Under the pieces are notes generated by a model. The model made no database searches. It worked only from the letters and a program-made list of their open reading frames with translations, and had not been told where the DNA came from. Shown here piece by piece: positions 3,114-14,010 of a DNA stretch of 64,000 nt (the first letter of the stretch is position 1; every line of letters begins with the position of its first letter). Position numbers and translations under genes: made by a program. Source of the stretch: Gammaproteobacteria bacterium (GTDB taxonomy: Bacteria; Pseudomonadota; Gammaproteobacteria; Arenicellales; Poriferihabitantaceae); NCBI GenBank assembly GCA_009842505.1, contig VYFG01000135.1:1-64000 (forward strand), given 5' to 3'.

Positions 3114-4298
3114 TCAGGCCGAAAGCCGGACAACCTTTGCAGTCTGTCCGGTGCAGTGTGCGGCCCATTGCTCCATCAGAACGCGGCGACGGTCGAACAG
3201 GTCACTGCGGAAATAGGCTCCCTCGACGCCGCCCACGATATGGGCAAGCGCGGCCTCGGCCAGTTCCCGGGGCTTGCCAGTCTCGGCGCACCAGTCGCGG
3301 AATGATGACCGGAATCCGTGTACCGTTCCACCAACACCGGCGGCAATCCTCGCCTTGCGGATCATGTTATTTGCAATCCGCCCGCCGTTCCGAACGCCTG
3401 GGAAAATGATGCCGGTTTCGTCGCCGTAGGGTTTCATGCTTTCCAGTATCGACATTGCCGCCGGTGACAGTGGAACGCGATGTTCCTTGCCGGTTTTCAT
3501 CCGGCTTGCCGGGATAACCCATGTATCGCCGTCAATCTCGGCCCATGTCGCCCCGAGCGCTTCGGCCTGTCTCGCCGCCGTCAGGATGATGAATTCCAGT
3601 GCCGCCCTTACCGTGTCCGGGGATTCCGTATTACGGACGCCCTCAATTGCCGCAGGAACGTCTTTCCATGGGATGGCGTCAAAGTGCTGCGTCTTGGCCT
3701 TTTGGGACGGTAGAGCGCCGTTGATGACCTCTCCGGCGGGATTGTGGTCAATGTGCCCATGGGACATGGCGTACTCGAAAACCGCCTTGAGATTCTGGCG
3801 TACATTCCTGCCGATGGACGGCTTGGCTGCCCACAGCGGCAAAAGGATTTCCAGGGTATGCGTCCGGTCGATCCGGTCAACCGGGATATCTCCGATCACG
3901 GGCAGGACGTAACGGGGAATGTAGGTTTGCCACATATGGCGCGGGGAGGCGCTTTTCCATGTCTCGCACTTGAGGTTGTATACTTCATCCGCAATCTTGC
4001 GGAATGTCGGTACATTGGCCTTCCGCACCAATGCCTTGCGGATGGCGCGGCGATCCGCAACCGGGTCATTGCCATCGAGCACGGCGGCGCGATTCTGTAC
4101 CGCCTTGTCCTTGGCTTCGCTAAGGGACGTGGCAGGGTATCCGCCCAGGCCGATATCCTTGCGCTTGCCGTGGACCATGAGGCGCTGCACAAATTGCTTT
4201 GACCCGCCCGGGGCGATCCGCAGGTACAGGGAATCCGCCACCCGGTGCATACCCGGCTTTTTCAGTCCGGCCAGTTGGCTTGCTTTCAGAAGTTTCAT
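3114..4298 (-). CDS. int: Tyrosine recombinase / P4-type integrase
   Basis: This 394-residue integrase starts at ATG 4298 (MKLLKASQLAGLKKPGMHRV). The frame is open upstream to 4460, but that part is AT-rich and lacks family similarity. The N-terminal DUF4102-like arm-binding domain (YLRIAPGGSKQF, GLGGYPATSLSEAK) is followed by a core-binding SAM-like domain (PVIGDIPVDRIDRTHTLEIL) and the catalytic domain. Visible catalytic residues are R in TAARQAEALG, H-x-x-R in HGFRSSFRDW, H in ALAHIVGG and the Tyr in EGAYFRSD. It catalyses site-specific insertion and excision of the island. The att site should lie beyond its 5' end (about 4.3-4.7 kb), but no tRNA gene is visible there. Confidence 0.95.
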   Translation of the reverse strand: MKLLKASQLAGLKKPGMHRVADSLYLRIAPGGSKQFVQRLMVHGKRKDIGLGGYPATSLSEAKDKAVQNRAAVLDGNDPVADRRAIRKALVRKANVPTFRKIADEVYNLKCETWKSASPRHMWQTYIPRYVLPVIGDIPVDRIDRTHTLEILLPLWAAKPSIGRNVRQNLKAVFEYAMSHGHIDHNPAGEVINGALPSQKAKTQHFDAIPWKDVPAAIEGVRNTESPDTVRAALEFIILTAARQAEALGATWAEIDGDTWVIPASRMKTGKEHRVPLSPAAMSILESMKPYGDETGIIFPGVRNGGRIANNMIRKARIAAGVGGTVHGFRSSFRDWCAETGKPRELAEAALAHIVGGVEGAYFRSDLFDRRRVLMEQWAAHCTGQTAKVVRLSA

Positions 4299-5080
4299 CG
4301 CTCTAATCCGGTCAAGTGTCAAGGTGCCTAGAATAGTACGCCAGCGTGAAAAGTAATGCAACAGTATATCCAACATTTGTCCCACATAAAACATGCATAC
4401 ATAGATTATTTGAAAACAGGGATTTATGACGATATATTCAATATAACTACGTAATATCAATGATATAACTGATTTTCTCTGCTCTTTCTTGATTTTATAA
4501 GACTTTGGATATTACTTCATAGGCAAGTAGTCCTGATCCCAACCCCGCATTATCCGTTTGGCGGGTATGAGTCCCATCGAACAGTCCGTTGCCATGGCGA
4601 ATTGAACCGCAACGACGTAGGCTCCATTCAGGAAGGCGCAATGATCGTGGTGACTGGAGGGCGAGTAAGGATAAGGTCAACGAGAAATACCGGACGCAAC
4701 GAAGTCTAGTTCCCGAATGAAAAAAATTGTTCTACCGAATTTTCCTTTCTCAGGTCTTCTACACTTCAGCACATCTCCTTCACGGTCCCCGGGCGGCATT
4801 GTGGGATGATGAGGTAGGTTCTATAATCTGGTCATTCGGTCCGGGGAATCCGTTTGCACGGACTCCTATTGTCACGGTACCCGGTTCCTCAGGGCCGTCC
4901 TGAACCGGTGGGGGCCGGTCTCCATAATTGAAATCAATTCCGATCGAGAGGCACGGACCAAGGCAGGGCGGCCAAGACGGGATACGAGCGTGACCGGGCA
5001 TCCGGTTCAATCCAGGTTCCAGACACTTGGGAGCATTTCCAGGCGGGCCTGTCCGAAATCCTCCCTCAGGGGACAGCAAT
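4299..5080. other. Island boundary / intergenic region
   Basis: This 782-base spacer runs between the integrase start and the proton-channel gene. Its left third (4320-4500) is strikingly AT-rich compared with everything to the right, and it is the likely place for the integrase promoter and the attachment core. I find no tRNA, no tmRNA 3' end and no long direct repeat within the window. The other end of the element lies outside, so the att duplication cannot be tested. The right part holds a candidate promoter for the downstream operon, followed by a leader of about 250 nt with several GC-rich complementary segments. Confidence 0.5.
4799..4827 (+). promoter_or_regulatory. Candidate sigma70 promoter upstream of the proton-channel pair
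   Basis: TTGTGG (4799-4804), a 17-nt spacer and a perfect TATAAT (4822-4827) lie about 250 bases before the ExbB/MotA-like start. The -10 is consensus and the -35 matches at only three of six positions. No other consensus -10 is seen before the operon. The long leader could hold post-transcriptional control, but I see no known riboswitch. Confidence 0.4.
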
Positions 5081-6109
5081 ATGAGTTCGACCACTAGGCT
5101 GACCAGCAATTACACCCGGAGCATCCTGATCCAGATGGTCGCGGTGCTCGCCATCTTGATTGGGGTCGCGGTCTGGCAATGGGATCTTTTTCGGGAAATC
5201 TACATCCAGAACCAGATCAACAGGGTGGGCTGGACGATCAACGGGGGCATTGCCATCCTCTTTCTGACCGGCCTGATCCAGCTGGTCATGCGGTTCTCCG
5301 AGTACCGTTACCAGGAGGTGGCGCTGAACCGGTTCCTGGTGAATATACGCAAGGATGACGACCCGCTGAAGGGCATCGAGCAGAAATGCATGATCGCGGA
5401 GCGGTACATTACGCTGGGCAAACTCAACCGCCGGCGTGCCCGCATCAATCACAACGCGCTGGCGGCCACCCTGCACGCGGTGGAGTCCAGCCGCAACAGC
5501 TACCTCAAGTTCGTGCAGAGCGTGCTGGTGCTGACCGGCGTGTTCGGCACGATCGTATCGCTGTCAATCGCCCTGCTGGGCGCGTCCGGCATCATCCAGG
5601 CGGGCCTGAGTGCGACCCAGGGGACCGATGGCATGAGCACCATGATCTACGGCATGTCCACCGCGCTTTCCACCACCATGTCCGCGATCCTGGCGTATCT
5701 CATATTCGGGTATTTCTACATCAAGCTGACGGACACCCAGACCTATCTGATCAGCAAGGTGGAGGAGGTGACCGCGACGACCCTGCTGCCGCATTTGCAG
5801 TCCATCCAGGACAAGGTGGCCATGGACTATTCGGACAGCATCCGGGGGGCCACCGAACTCATGCAGCGTTTCGACAGGAGCCAGAAGGTATACGCGGATT
5901 CGGCCGCCCAGCTCAAGACCTCCATTGAGCAGTTCACGGCCAGCTACCGGCCCGAACTGGCGGATGCCAACGTTGAAACCACCCGCAAGATACTGGATCA
6001 GTTGCAGGAGATCAGCGAGAAGCAGCGCGAGTCGGGACAGCGCAGCGAGGAGGCGCTGAAAGAGATGGTGCAGCTGTTGCGCGAAGGGTTCCGCCTTTCC
6101 GGCAAGTGA
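5081..6109 (+). CDS. MotA/TolQ/ExbB-family proton channel subunit
   Basis: This is a 342-residue inner-membrane protein. The start MSSTTRL at 5081 is preceded by GGGGAC at good spacing. Hydrophobic segments lie near residues 14-34, 52-70, 146-168 and 190-214. The last two carry the family signature: TGVFGTIVSLSIALLG, then GMSTALSTTMSAILAYL, matching the TolQ/ExbB/MotA helices that line the proton path. A cytoplasmic loop (71-145) and a helical cytoplasmic tail of about 120 residues flank them. It lacks the long MotA torque loop and is shorter than ZorA. Only three bases separate it from the next gene, which encodes the matching single-pass partner, so together they should form a pmf-driven 5:2-type motor. 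The process it powers is unknown. Confidence 0.85.
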   Translation: MSSTTRLTSNYTRSILIQMVAVLAILIGVAVWQWDLFREIYIQNQINRVGWTINGGIAILFLTGLIQLVMRFSEYRYQEVALNRFLVNIRKDDDPLKGIEQKCMIAERYITLGKLNRRRARINHNALAATLHAVESSRNSYLKFVQSVLVLTGVFGTIVSLSIALLGASGIIQAGLSATQGTDGMSTMIYGMSTALSTTMSAILAYLIFGYFYIKLTDTQTYLISKVEEVTATTLLPHLQSIQDKVAMDYSDSIRGATELMQRFDRSQKVYADSAAQLKTSIEQFTASYRPELADANVETTRKILDQLQEISEKQRESGQRSEEALKEMVQLLREGFRLSGK

Positions 6110-6112
6110 CGG

Positions 6113-7732
6113 ATGGCCGAAAACGGCTTCATTGACCTGCGCATCGGCCACGGGGTACGCGGCCCCGGCGACGACAGCGTATGGCCTTCCTTCACGGACA
6201 TCATGACCGTGGTGGTCATGATATTTCTCATGGCCCTGGTGATCATCATGATCCGGAACAGCGACCTGAACCGGCAGCTGCTGAGCAGCATGGATATCAA
6301 CCAGGCGATCTCATCGGCCAACCTGGGGCTGACTTCCGAGGTATCCGAGCTGAGGAGCAACCTGTTGGCGCTGCAGAAGGCCCTGGGGGATACCGAAAGC
6401 GACAAGCAGTCGCTGAGCGATCGCCTCGCGGACGAGGTCGCCCGCGCCACGGCATTGCTGGAGGCCAAGCAATTGCTGGACCGGGAGGTGGCGGGTCTGG
6501 AGGAACTCAGGTCCAGCCTGAGCAGTGAAAACCTGATCCTGCTCGCGGAGAAGGACCAGCTGACCGGCGAGAACCGGACACTGTCCGCGGAAAACGCCCG
6601 GCTCAGACAGGCCAATGCCGTACTGGAGCAGAACCTGGGTGAACTGACCGAGGAGAAGGTCCAGCTGCTCGCGCAGAGCGCCGAGCTGACGCAACACCGG
6701 GACCTGCTGGCCACGCAGAAAGAAGCGCTGGCATCCGAAAAGCAGGGCCTGATCGGGGAAAGGGACTCCCTGAAAACATCCCTCGGCAGGCTCGAGACCC
6801 AGAATCTGGGCCTCAGGCAGGACAAGGAGGAACTGATCGGTCAAAGACAGTCCCTGGCCGGCGAAGTGGAGACCCTGCTTGCGGCGCGGCGCCAGCTGCA
6901 GTCCGATCTTGAATCCATGCGGCTGGAGAACCAGGAACTGGAGTCCCAGCGCTCGACGTTGTCCACGGAGAACCAGCTCAAGCAGTCCACCATCGAGGAT
7001 CTTGCCCAGCAGGAACGCATTCTGTCCGGTCAGCTGGCGGAAATTTCCCGGCAGCTTGATCAACTCACGATCTCATCGACACAGGAGATCAAGACCCTGA
7101 CACAGCGGAACCTCTCACTGTCGGACCAGCTGGATGACGTCAACCTGAAGCTTGCACTGCTGCAGTTGGAACTGGAACGCCAGAAGGAGCAGGAGGTGAC
7201 CCTGCTGCAGCAACTGTCCGATCGCAAGCAGGAATTCGAACAGTTGCAGCAGAGCGAACAGGCCGTGCTGCTGAAATTTGCCGTGGCGAGCGAAGAGATC
7301 GAGGAACTGTCGCGCCTGATCCAGGTAAGGGAGCGGGAAAACCGCGCACTGCAGGCCGAGGCCGACCGGCAGGGTTCTCTGTTCGTTTCCCTCAAGGAGG
7401 AATACGAGGCGCTGGAAGAACAGTATCGCAGCCTGGTGCGTGCGGCGCGGTCCCCGGCCGGCAAGGAAGTGGTTCAAGTGTATTTCAGCCGGGGAACTGC
7501 AGGGTATGAGTATCGCCTGGTCATGCCCGGCGGCGACGAGCAGGAGGACGTCACCAGGGGGGAACTGGACCGTCGCCTAGCCGCGCTCAAGGACCTTCAC
7601 GGACGGAACCTCTACACACGGGTGATCATTCCCGAGACGAGCAACCTGTCACACAACGAGGCCTGGCGCTTCACCCAGGAGATCCTGAACAGGTACGACT
7701 ACTACTACCAGCAGGCGGACGGGGAGGAGTAG
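6113..7732 (+). CDS. ExbD/MotB-like stator partner with very long coiled coil
   Basis: This 539-residue protein has one transmembrane helix near residues 26-47. It contains SFTDIMTVVVMIFLMAL, whose Asp29 matches the essential proton-binding Asp of MotB/ExbD/TolR. Residues of about 55-450 are almost pure heptad-rich coiled coil (repeated LxxExxxL, Q/E/S-rich, hardly any Pro or Gly). The last 90 residues are globular (VVQVYFSRGTAGYEYRLVM, then a helix LDRRLAALKD, then LYTRVIIPETSNLSHNEAWR) and resemble the small ExbD/TolR periplasmic fold. I see no OmpA peptidoglycan-binding motif, unlike MotB and ZorB. It is operonic with the upstream channel gene. The stalk could span much of the periplasm. 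The C-terminal fold assignment is inference. Confidence 0.75.
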   Translation: MAENGFIDLRIGHGVRGPGDDSVWPSFTDIMTVVVMIFLMALVIIMIRNSDLNRQLLSSMDINQAISSANLGLTSEVSELRSNLLALQKALGDTESDKQSLSDRLADEVARATALLEAKQLLDREVAGLEELRSSLSSENLILLAEKDQLTGENRTLSAENARLRQANAVLEQNLGELTEEKVQLLAQSAELTQHRDLLATQKEALASEKQGLIGERDSLKTSLGRLETQNLGLRQDKEELIGQRQSLAGEVETLLAARRQLQSDLESMRLENQELESQRSTLSTENQLKQSTIEDLAQQERILSGQLAEISRQLDQLTISSTQEIKTLTQRNLSLSDQLDDVNLKLALLQLELERQKEQEVTLLQQLSDRKQEFEQLQQSEQAVLLKFAVASEEIEELSRLIQVRERENRALQAEADRQGSLFVSLKEEYEALEEQYRSLVRAARSPAGKEVVQVYFSRGTAGYEYRLVMPGGDEQEDVTRGELDRRLAALKDLHGRNLYTRVIIPETSNLSHNEAWRFTQEILNRYDYYYQQADGEE

Positions 7733-7889
7733 GGGCAAATGGAGCAATCCGCCTGTCCGGATCGTGCCATCTTCCGGCGATGCCGGAACCGGGCCGGGCC
7801 GGCATGATGGGCGACTGCCGCTGTCCGGCAAGCTGATTGCCGTAACCCCTGACCTGCCGCGACCTGCCCGTAAGCCTGAAGGTGTATTG

Positions 7890-8600
7890 ATGAGCGCCGA
7901 TGCGAAGCATGCGAAACTGGCACTGTACAGGGTGTTGCGCCATCTTCCCGGGCGGCCGGGCGCGATTTTCCGGGACAAGTATTCGAGGAAACTGGAGCAG
8001 GGTGCGGCCCGGGAGGCATTCCAGAGGGCTATGCAACGGATTGACGGCACCGTGTGCATCGACCTTGGCGCAAACGTCGGGATATATACCCGGTTGCTGG
8101 CTTCGCGTGCCAGGCGCGTGATCGCATTTGAACCGGATCCATGGACGTGCGCCCGGCTCCGGGAAAACGTTTCCGGTCTTGACAATGTGAAGGTTGAAAA
8201 TGCGGCGGTGGGTACCAGCGACGGTGTGACCTGGCTTTACCGTCACAGGAAGTTCGACCGGGACCGGGCTTTCCGCTCGCAGTCAAGCTCGACCCTCTCG
8301 ACAAGCAGGCGCCTCGACAGGGATAGTGCCCTGGAGGTGCCACTGGTGGATTTCGTGAGATACCTCGAAGAACTTGAAGCGGTGGGCGAGCCGATCGGAA
8401 TTCTCAAGATCGACATCGAAGGCGCTGAAATCGAGTTGCTCGAAGCCCTGTTTGACCGGCCGGACCTGCTGGAGGGCATGGACTATATCTTCGCGGAGAC
8501 CCATGAGCGGTTTCATGCCAGTTTCGTGCCGCGTGTCGCACGGCTCCGCGAACGGGCGAAGCGCATTCGCCGTCCCGTGATCAACCTGGGTTGGCACTGA
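7890..8600 (+). CDS. FkbM-family SAM-dependent methyltransferase
   Basis: This 236-residue protein starts at MSADAKHAK (ATG 7890). The open frame reaches 7764, but its first 42 residues are Pro/Gly/Arg-rich, like read-through of non-coding DNA. The class I SAM-binding motif is VCIDLGANVGIYTRLLA, followed by VIAFEPDPWTCARLRENV (acidic motif II), NAAVGTSDG, and the FkbM hallmark LKIDIEGAEIELLEAL. FkbM enzymes O-methylate sugars, lipids or polyketides, and the substrate cannot be inferred here. It lies 157 bases after the coiled-coil gene and 51 bases before mnmG, so linkage to the proton-channel pair is possible but not compelling. Confidence 0.85.
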   Translation: MSADAKHAKLALYRVLRHLPGRPGAIFRDKYSRKLEQGAAREAFQRAMQRIDGTVCIDLGANVGIYTRLLASRARRVIAFEPDPWTCARLRENVSGLDNVKVENAAVGTSDGVTWLYRHRKFDRDRAFRSQSSSTLSTSRRLDRDSALEVPLVDFVRYLEELEAVGEPIGILKIDIEGAEIELLEALFDRPDLLEGMDYIFAETHERFHASFVPRVARLRERAKRIRRPVINLGWH

Positions 8601-8651: not shown

Positions 8652-10532
8652 ATGAGCCATCCTGAACATTTCGACGTCATCGTCATCGGCGGCGGGCATG
8701 CCGGGGTGGAGGCCGCGCTCGCATCCGCCCGCGTCGGCGCGTCCACGCTCCTGGTGACCCACAACATCGAGACCGTCGGCCAGATGTCCTGCAATCCCGC
8801 CATCGGCGGGATTGGCAAGGGGCATATCGTGAAGGAGATCGATGCGCTGGGAGGCGTCATGGCACGGGCCATCGACCGGTCCGGCATCCATTTCAGGATC
8901 CTCAACGCCCGCAAGGGTCCCGCGGTGCAGGCCACCCGGGCCCAGGCGGACCGCGCTCTCTACCGGATGGCCATCCGGGGTGCGGTGGAGCACCAGGACG
9001 GCCTCACGCTGTTCCAGCAGGCGGTGGACGATATCCTGATGGACGACGGGCGGGTGCGCGGTGTCCGCACCCGGATCGGGATCGTTTTCGAGGCCCCCGC
9101 GGTGGTGCTGACCACGGGCACGTTCCTGAACGGCAGGATCCATATCGGCATGGACAATTCCATGGGCGGGCGCGCCGGCGACCCGCCTTCCGTCACGCTG
9201 GCCAACCGGTTGCGGGAGCTGCCCCTGGGGGTGGACCGCCTGAAGACGGGAACGCCGCCGAGGATTGACGGCAAGACCATTGACTACAGGGGGCTCGAAG
9301 AGCAGCCCGGGGATGAGCCGGTGCCGGTATTTTCCTTTCTCGGCAGCGCCGAGGAGCATCCCCGCCAGGTGCATTGCCACATCACGCATACCAACGCCCG
9401 CACCCACGATATCATCATGCAGGGGCTCGACCGGTCGCCCCTGTATGGCGGGATGATCGAGGGCGTGGGGCCGCGATACTGCCCTTCCATCGAGGACAAG
9501 GTCGTTCGTTTTGCCGACCGCGCAAGTCACCAGATCTTCATCGAACCCGAGGGACTGAATACCACCGAGGTCTATCCCAACGGAATCTCCACCAGCCTGC
9601 CCTTCGACGTGCAGCGGGATCTGGTGCATAGCATCAGGGGCTTTGAAAATGCCCGTATCACCCGGCCCGGCTACGCCATCGAATACGATTTTTTCGATCC
9701 GCGGGGGCTCAAGCACAGTCTGGAAACCAAGTGCGTCCAGGGGCTTTTCTTCGCCGGCCAGATCAACGGCACCACCGGTTATGAGGAAGCGGCCGGACAG
9801 GGGCTGATTGCGGGACTGAACGCCGCAAGGCAGGTGGCGGGCGAGGACCCGTGGTGGCCCGGGCGCGGCGATGCCTACATCGGCGTGATGATCGATGACC
9901 TGGTGACGCTGGGCACCGGCGAACCCTATCGCATGTTCACTTCCCGGGCGGAATACCGCCTTCAGCTCCGCGAGGACAATGCCGACCTTCGCCTCACGCA
10001 GGAAGGACGCAGGCTCGGCCTGGTCGATGACGGGCGAATGCGCCGCCTCGAAGCCAAGCGCGATGCCGTGGAACGGGAGAAGATCCGCCTGGCCGGGACC
10101 CGGGTGCATCCCGGCGGGCTGGACCCGCAGAAGGAAGCGGCGGTGCTGGGCCGGGCGCTCGGCCGGGAAGCCAGCCTGCTGGAACTGCTGCGCCGCCCGG
10201 AAGTCGGCTACCGTGCGATGGCTGATCTCGTCGGTCTCGAGGAACCCCTGGACGATGAACAGGTGATCCGGCAGCTGGAGATCCAGGCCCGGTACGAGGG
10301 CTACATCGAGCGGCAGCAGGGGGAAATCAAACGCCTGCGCAGTAAGGAGAACACCGCCATTCCCGCGGACATGGACTATGCCCTGGTACGCGGGCTGTCG
10401 GCGGAAGTGCGCCAGAAGCTGGCCGATGCCAGACCGGAAACCGTGGGACAGGCGGCCCGCATACCCGGGGTCACCCCCGCCGCGGTCTCCCTGCTGCTGG
10501 TCCATCTCAAGCGGATCCAGCACGCCGCCTGA
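8652..10532 (+). CDS. mnmG: tRNA uridine-5-carboxymethylaminomethyl modification enzyme MnmG (GidA)
   Basis: The length of 626 residues is close to the usual 629. With MnmE it installs the cmnm5 group on U34 of tRNAs, using FAD, methylene-THF and glycine. Visible features are the FAD dinucleotide motif [21 protein letters not shown] at the N-terminus, [13 protein letters not shown], the GidA signature ending [20 protein letters not shown], and the helical C-terminal domain starting around [12 protein letters not shown]. The usual gammaproteobacterial neighbours rsmG and parAB are absent; a convergent gor follows. ATG 8652 is the only start that gives the canonical N-terminus. Confidence 0.98.
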
Positions 10533-11937: not shown

Positions 11938-14010
11938 ATGAAAGAAACCATGCAGTGCGGCAACCCGCTGCTCGATCTTTCCGGGCTGCCGGATTTCGGG
12001 GCGATTCTACCAGAGCATGTGGAACCTGCAGTGGATCGGGTGCTGTCCAGGAATCGCAGGGAGATCCGGCGGCTGATCGACACGGTGGAAAACCCCGGAT
12101 GGGACAGTTTCATGGCGCCGCTGGAGCAGCTGGCAGATGAACTGGAGCGCATATGGGCGCCGGTGTCCCACCTGAATGCGGTGCGGGACAGCGAGGACCT
12201 GCGTACGGTATACCAGAAGTGTCTTGTCAAGTTGTCGGACTATTGGGTCGAACTGGGCCAGAACAAGGCCCTGTACCGGACCATTCAGCGGATCCGGCAC
12301 CATGACCGCTTCGATGGTCTCGAACAGGCCAGGCGCAAGGCCATCGACAATGACCTGAGGGATTTCCGGCTCTCCGGAATCGACCTCGAGCCCGCGCAAA
12401 GGGAACGGTTCCGGGAGATATCCGGTGAATTGTCCCGTCTGGGAAACCTGTTTTCCCGCAACCTGTTGGATGCCACGGACGCCTGGCATGTCGATGTCAC
12501 CGGGGAGGCCGGACTGGACGGGATTCCCGACCACGCCAGGCAGGCGGCCCGGCAGGCCGCCGGCGAAGCCGGCGTGGACGGCTGGCGCTTTACCCTCCAG
12601 GAGCCTTCCTACAAGGCGGTCATGAATCATGCCGAGGACGGCGGGTTGCGGGAGGAGATGTATCGCGCCTTTGCCACCCGGGCCAGCGAGACCGGTCCCG
12701 GCGGGGGAAAATGGGACAACAGCGGGGTGATGCGGGATATCCTCGAATTGCGCCGGGAACAGGCGCAGTTGCTCGGCTACGGGCACTACGCGGAATACTC
12801 GCTGGCCACCAGGATGGCGCAGAGCACGGATGAGATCTTCGGTTTCATCCGGCAGCTGTCCGACAAGTGCCGCCCGGCGGGCCTGAAGGAGGTGGAGCGC
12901 CTGAAGTCGTTTGCCAGGGAAAACCTTGGGCTCGACGATCTCGCGCCATGGGATTATGCCTGGGCCGGAGAAAGGCTGCGCCAGCACCAGTACGGATTTT
13001 CCGGGGAAACGGTCAGGCCCTACTTTCCGCTTCCGACCGTGCTGGATGGCATGTTCCGCATCGCCGGCCGCCTCTTCGGAATTGATGTGGAGCCTGCGGA
13101 CGCCCCGTCGGTATGGCATCCCGACGTCCGGTTTTTCCGTGTCCGGGACCGGGATGGAGAAACCAGGGCCTATTTCTACGCCGACCTGTACGCGCGCAGG
13201 CACAAGCGCGGCGGCGCCTGGATGGCGGACTGTGTCGGCCGTCGCGCGACGGACGCGGGGGTACAGTTGCCGGTGGCTTTCCTGACCTGCAATTTCACGG
13301 CCCCGGTGGACGGCCGCCCGTGCCTGCTGACCCATGAGGAGGTGATCACCCTGTTTCACGAATTCGGACACGGCCTGCACCACATGCTTACCCGGGTGGA
13401 TGTGGCCGCGGTGGCGGGTATCAACGGGGTTCCCTGGGACGCCGTGGAACTGCCGAGCCAGTTTCTCGAGAACTGGTGCTGGGAGCAGGAGGCTCTGGAC
13501 CTGGTATCGGGCCACGTGGACACCGGCGAGCCGCTGCCCGTGGAACTGCTGGAGAAAATGCGCCGGAGCCGGAATTTTCACTCGGCCATGGGGATGTGCC
13601 GCCAGCTCGAGTTCGCACTGTTCGACATGCGGCTGCACTCGGGTTTCGATCCCGGGGGCGGTGAAACCGTTCTGGACCTGCTGGAGGCGGTGCGGGACGA
13701 GGTCGCCGTGGTCCGGGCCCCGGCTTTCAACCGCTTCCCGCATTCCTTCGGCCACATCTTTGCGGGTGGTTATGCGGCGGGCTACTACAGTTACCTCTGG
13801 GCGGAAGTACTGTCGGCGGATGCGTTCAGCCTGTTCGAGGAAACGGGCATCTTCGACCGGGACTCGGGGCAGCGGTTTCTCCACTGGATACTGGAGCGGG
13901 GCGGGTCCGAGGAGCCCATGGTGCTGTTCGAGGGGTTCCGGGGCCGGAAACCCACCGTGGACGCCCTGCTGCGTCACTCGGGATTGAGCCCGCTCGGGGA
14001 AGCGGCGTAA
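11938..14010 (+). CDS. prlC: Oligopeptidase A (M3 zinc metallopeptidase)
   Basis: This 690-residue cytoplasmic M3-family peptidase degrades oligopeptides, including signal-peptide fragments. The thermolysin-like zinc site [11 protein letters not shown] is in the C-terminal half (around residue 480), and the third ligand Glu lies in the downstream [10 protein letters not shown] segment. The helical N-terminal domain with [20 protein letters not shown] matches PrlC. The start at 11938 (MKETMQCG) has AGGA five bases upstream; [10 protein letters not shown] four codons later is an alternative. Its promoter must overlap the gor 5' end because of the 18-base divergent gap. Confidence 0.96.

Follow-up and report, generated by a model that had tools for sequence, protein, structure and literature searches.

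A conserved gene pair joining a MotA/ExbB-type channel subunit to a coiled-coil stalk of heptad-quantised length with a predicted TolR-fold tip

The locus studied here raises the question of how a bacterial envelope houses a rod that, if straight, would be two to six times as long as the periplasm is wide. In the window, by which we mean the whole 64,000-nucleotide stretch of Arenicellales DNA that was analysed, it consists of two adjacent genes, here called A and B (Table 1). A sequence-only reading had described a four-helix TolQ/ExbB/MotA-like channel gene, followed three bases on by a single-pass protein with a MotB/ExbD-type Asp29 in SFTDIM, about 400 residues of unbroken heptad-rich sequence and a 90-residue C-terminal domain of ExbD/TolR appearance that lacks an OmpA motif. 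The homologue comparisons, periodicity analysis and structure prediction given below bear out each part of this description.

Table 1. Positions in the window of the A-B pair, the parts of B and the flanking features
Feature	Positions	Strand	Description	Basis
Gene A	5081..6109	+	342 aa; four-TM MotA/TolQ/ExbB-type channel subunit	ORF, PF01618 in homologues, ExbB alignment
Gene B	6113..7732	+	539 aa; single-pass axle subunit	ORF and homologue comparison
B TM helix	6182..6256	+	putative proton-carrying Asp29 (codon 6197-6199; WPSFTDIM)	translation, homologue alignment
B stalk	6269..7444	+	392 residues, no proline, heptad period 3.50; a single straight coiled coil of this length would measure ~58 nm	sequence periodicity
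B tip	7460..7705	+	TolR/ExbD-fold domain (predicted), then conserved YDYYYQ end	AlphaFold2 model, structural realignment
mnmG (gidA)	8652..10532	+	borders the conserved core locus of the pair on its downstream side	
mnmE 3' end copy CATAGGCAAGTAG	4518..4530	+	likely attachment-site edge of integrated element; A-B outside; chance 0.002	
Tyrosine integrase of the mnmE element	3114..4460	-	context, not part of the putative motor	

The pair and its place in the genome

Both open reading frames were recovered where they had been placed, with a gap of 3 bases between them in the window. Hydropathy averaged across the family gives A four hydrophobic segments, and PF01618 (MotA_ExbB) matches 23 of 24 A homologues (best E 2.2e-5), most of the matches shown lying under the curated cut-off and one (L088) above it. 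On its own, the A of the window reaches E 0.018 against PF01618 and is absent among the matches of a PF01618 search over the source genome, so routine annotation can miss it. The A profile is collinear with an ExbB profile across residues 11-236 (P 4e-4). In this alignment, GVFGT of A falls on GLFGT of ExbB and GMSTALSTT on GIAEALLAT (EALLAT), the sites of the pore threonines of ExbB TM2 and TM3; the corresponding Thr157 and Thr198/Thr199 of A are invariant among the aligned homologues. The AlphaFold2 monomer model of A (pLDDT 46) was too low in confidence for use. The cytoplasmic tail of A (residues 229-342, window 5765-6106) comprises about 110 variable residues and closes in an EGFRL motif that is conserved in nearly all homologues.

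A is present upstream of every intact B that has readable upstream sequence, and at 20 class-level loci the two genes mostly overlap or almost touch. The arrangement is conserved in more than 100 homologues and is therefore not a product of chance; A and B are an obligate pair. The search for further partners covered gene neighbourhoods. Across the same 20 loci A is the sole generally conserved neighbour of B, with neither defence genes nor a linked TolA/TonB-like transducer conserved there, and a tblastn search of plasmids gave no match. A profile search with the tip located the family in 55 of 369 genomes and 40 of 272 genera (~15%) of a Gammaproteobacteria sample and in 28 more genomes of a phylum sample, which belong to two families (f211 and f231) placed outside the class. 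Within the source order the distribution is patchy: family f10 is without the pair in every sampled genome listed (for example G032, G040 and G045). TolB occurs in 53 of the 55 class-level carriers, the source genome included, which rules out that A-B replaces Tol-Pal. The source genome also carries three classical ExbD/TolR genes.

The gene order yidC-mnmE-A-B-mnmG is found in the same genus and in about ten families of the source order. In the source genome itself, mnmE lies on a separate contig (C56, L210; 4100-5476), and its terminal CATAGGCAAGTAG recurs in the window beside the integrase. The 3' ends of mnmE are a known target of SGI1-type elements, and mnmE is missing from the window because an integrase-bearing element occupies its 3' end. 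The 13-bp direct repeat likely marks the edges of this element (window 3114-4530), and the assembly parts mnmE from its usual neighbours. Given the core order in relatives and the position of the element, A-B is core chromosome, vertically inherited in the source order, and not island cargo. The pair had been read as sitting at an island boundary and as possibly defence-related. A boundary is indeed there, but it belongs to an integrative element in the mnmE 3' end, and A-B lies outside that element. The suggestion of a defence role finds no support, as the locus is a vertically inherited core locus in the source order and elsewhere has no conserved defence neighbours in the tabulated contexts.

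Two further features of the window belong to its annotation. An ORF for an FkbM-type methyltransferase at 7764-8600 separates B from mnmG, and at the same-genus loci L002-L005 mnmG comes directly after B. A tRNA-Asp called by ARAGORN at 12304-12383 (-) lies within the prlC coding region and is likely a false positive.

The stalk and tip of B

The motif WPSFTDIM is present in the B of the window and in the aligned homologues, the 117-protein B set used below having been selected with a motif of this type. The surrounding TM region is weakly matched by the PRK09039 and ZorB1 models. Beyond it, residues 53-444 contain no proline, and their period of 3.50 stands at z = 11 against shuffled sequences. 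Conservation in B is among its highest towards the two ends, in a cytoplasmic leader GF(V/I)DLR (residues 5-10, window 6125-6142) and in YDYYYQ (residues 528-533, window 7694-7711), both of which are likely partner or assembly sites.

The length of the stalk follows a rule. The distance D, counted from the TM Asp to an invariant AR in the tip of 117 intact B proteins, is 174 residues at its shortest and 986 at its longest. Its remainder on division by 7 is 6 in 73 of these proteins, 3 in 29, 0 in 12, 4 in two and 5 in one, and never 1 or 2. The three main classes, which hold 114 of the 117, are spaced 4 residues apart; a step of 4 residues is the size of a coiled-coil stutter and keeps the hydrophobic seam. 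Among the 58 distinct lengths, uniformity is broken only at modulus 7 (and 14 and 21; p 2.8e-16), with R = 0.76 at period 3.5. The rule also holds in tree-based, non-overlapping pairs that differ in length (n = 44): exact multiples of 7 separate 33 of them, where 6.3 are expected (p 2e-19), and 41 differ by 0, 3 or 4 modulo 7. Hydrophobic phase is nearly constant over the 117 proteins, whether counted from the Asp (R 0.94) or from the tip (R 0.91), and the B of the window has a single phase shift at about residues 276-332 past the Asp, as expected for its class, 3.

Three control distances, namely the cytoplasmic leader of B, a loop of A and the tail of A, do not obey the rule (the length of the A tail has no heptad quantisation), which excludes chance or a generic modulo-7 effect. 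Every single-heptad step of D between 174 and 216 is in use (174, 181, 188, 195, 202, 209, 216); an antiparallel fold-back of the stalk is disfavoured, since a hairpin would step by 14. Tandem DNA repeats (TRF) occur in 25 of the 117 stalks, in 15 of which the best period is a multiple of 21 bp. Duplication thus has a share in the quantisation without explaining all of it; as its sole source it is ruled out. Judged from sequence, the B stalk is shown to be one continuous heptad coiled coil that holds its register from the TM helix to the tip in the sampled lineages. What the quantisation demonstrates is a continuous coiled coil, not the transmission of torque.

A straight rod with the standard helix rise of 0.1485 nm per residue would measure 22 nm for the shortest stalk (150 residues), 25 nm for the common class-level one (171 residues), 58 nm for the B of the window and about 143 nm for the longest (~960 residues). 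The periplasm is normally 20-25 nm wide. The floor of the series thus roughly equals the width of the periplasm, and forms of 58-143 nm could not fit into it upright. The earlier expectation of a stalk able to cross the periplasm holds as far as reach is concerned, but it was an understatement: the usual 22-25 nm would suffice, and the copy in the window and its longer relatives go far beyond that. Many contigs of family f3 stop within or near the B stalk (L129, L130, L137, L138, L143, L148, L151), which suggests that assemblies break at internal repeats of the stalk and that the sample is short of the longest forms.

The tip comprises about 90 residues, and its AlphaFold2 model, built from five close sequences, has a core mostly at pLDDT 80-91. 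Foldseek alone found no significant match for this model. Structural realignment (VIA) against a pool of 1000 chains, Foldseek's own best, placed TolR of H. influenzae (2jwk) first, with Z 9.0 over 74 of 74 residues at 2.3 A, followed by E. coli TolR (5by4; Z 8.4) and two ExbD chains (8p9r and 8vgd; Z 7.1); unrelated ribosomal proteins start at Z 5.8. Profiles are less telling. PF02472 has no significant match in B (two of 37 tips, best E 0.048; best whole protein E 0.011), and hhalign against a TolR/ExbD profile gives P 0.004 with a reversed control at P 0.015. The weakness of these similarities means that the link to TolR/ExbD comes from the predicted model and its five sequences. Profile searches found no OmpA domain in B or in the tips, and sequence searches of the PDB returned coiled-coil or chance matches only. 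The tip of B is TolR/ExbD-like by predicted fold, not OmpA-like, and lies outside PF02472 by profile.

A putative motor and competing explanations

We are confident of the overall architecture, which very probably runs from a channel through an axle helix and a continuous coiled coil to a TolR-fold tip. Its most natural reading, and probably the correct one, is that A-B belongs to the 5:2 superfamily (MotAB, TolQR, ExbBD, GldLM) as an inner-membrane motor driven by the proton motive force and acting at the outer envelope through a continuous coiled-coil shaft, separately from Tol-Pal. By homology, an oligomer of A (five copies in relatives) would surround a pair of B helices, and relative rotation would be driven by protons moving past Asp29 of B and the A threonines. 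The stalk would be two-stranded and parallel, a rod conveying motion or force over the periplasm to the peptidoglycan or outer-membrane side. Transducer and axle would then be combined in a single protein, as in GldM and unlike TolR with TolA or ExbD with TonB, and the system would operate alongside Tol-Pal rather than in its place. Whether the transmission of force to the outer envelope is really the job of A-B we regard as evenly balanced. In the lineage of the window, the rod has probably been lengthened by added heptads, partly through tandem duplication, and would have to lie tilted or along the wall. Indeed, a rod of 58-143 nm in a periplasm of 20-25 nm leaves a simple "span and push" picture with no explanation for the long forms. 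It is possible, if somewhat doubtful, that A-B stands for a kind of rotary envelope motor that is widespread and still undescribed. Its axle would be one parallel coiled coil reaching the outer envelope, its length would evolve only by whole heptads because the transmission of motion needs an unbroken register, and the rod of some lineages, at 60-140 nm, would work as a lever lying tangentially in the periplasm or as an arm sweeping through it.

The periplasmic domains of MotB and TolR anchor to peptidoglycan. If the tip of B did the same, the coiled coil would be a tether and the A ring would turn against a partner in or beneath the inner membrane. That stalks anywhere between 22 and about 143 nm are tolerated fits a tether better than a lever of fixed reach, and the A tail of about 110 residues with its conserved EGFRL end is in keeping with such a stator. 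A tether, however, needs neither an unbroken heptad register nor a floor near the width of the periplasm, and no conserved neighbour at the 20 class-level loci points to a partner; we consider this reading unlikely. There is a slim chance that B is instead a passive, Lpp-like rod that fixes the width of the envelope or senses it, with proton flow vestigial or serving only as an assembly gate. The shortest stalks, at about one periplasm width, would suit this role, whereas the long ones exceed any such width, and the conservation of the TM Asp and channel threonines in an obligate pair speaks against it. Equally improbable is a second Tol- or Ton-type system in which an unlinked TolA/TonB-like partner uses the A ring: channel and tip are of the Tol/Ton type, but none of the 20 contexts has a conserved linked transducer, the B shaft is already of periplasm length, and classical TolR/ExbD genes coexist. 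Finally, a Zorya-like anti-phage motor, suggested by a weak ZorB1 similarity confined to the TM region (E 1.6e-3, residues 20-69 of B only; ZorA, E 0.22) and by the integrase that adjoins the pair in the window, is scarcely credible, as ZorC/D/E-type neighbours and an OmpA tip are absent, the locus keeps its place between mnmE and mnmG throughout the source order, and the island is a separate element that targets mnmE.

Comparison with known systems

Among Pfam, NCBIfam and PADLOC models, none is the pair's own. Reviews and surveys of 5:2 motors cover MotAB, ExbBD, TolQR, AglRQS and GldLM, together with transpore-helix vWA proteins and "generic" transporters that carry additional domains (PMC9389320, PMC12505986, PMC12204202). 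No description of a coiled-coil axle that ends in a TolR fold was found in the literature searched, itself an incomplete collection, and within that collection the sequence-only reading was right that the known relatives do not combine a long coiled coil with an ExbD-like tip. It had named an OmpA tip, a ZorB or GldM variant and an already described system as identifications that would speak against it; OmpA and GldM are unmatched, and ZorB1 matches the TM segment only. If the motor reading of A-B is correct, it adds a nameless, profile-less family to the 5:2 ion-driven motors, with motor axle and periplasmic transducer joined in one protein and a natural length series at hand.

TolQ-TolR of Tol-Pal and ExbB-ExbD of Ton resemble A-B in their PF01618-type channel, in a single-pass partner with a TM Asp and, by our prediction, in the fold of the tip. 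TolR and ExbD, however, are about 140 aa long, have a short linker and depend on TolA or TonB as a separate transducer, whereas B has 150-960 coiled-coil residues between TM helix and tip; ExbB and TolQ have three TM helices, and A has four hydrophobic segments. GldL-GldM and PorLM, of type 9 secretion and gliding, are, like A-B, two-gene systems in which the axle subunit is itself a long periplasmic shaft. The GldM shaft measures 18 nm (PMC9389320). It consists of four folded domains, in contrast to the single coiled coil and predicted TolR-fold tip of B, and the A-B proteins have no GldM-type Pfam match. The transpore-helix vWA motor proteins likewise fuse an Asp-bearing axle helix to a large periplasmic transducer with a TolQ-like gene as sole partner, but they carry a vWA domain where B has its coiled coil and tip, and their axle genes usually form heterologous pairs (PMC12204202).

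MotAB, ZorAB and the PRK09039 family share with A-B a WxxFxD-type TM segment, at the level of weak HMM similarity, which in the case of PRK09039 extends over part of the coiled coil; their tips are OmpA-like and bind peptidoglycan, unlike the TolR-like tip of B. The nearest likeness to the length rule is found in the coiled-coil arms of SMC proteins, which also have evolutionarily periodic arm lengths and require a continuous heptad (PMC5344682). SMC arms show an added superhelical period of ~91-100 residues, however, whereas B stalks use every heptad step from 174 to 216, so that, unlike in SMC arms, no fixed superhelical angle from motor to tip is needed (PMC5344682). A five-fold variation in rod length with conserved register makes A-B a rare system in which the transmission of force through the periplasm could be tested through residue insertions and deletions.
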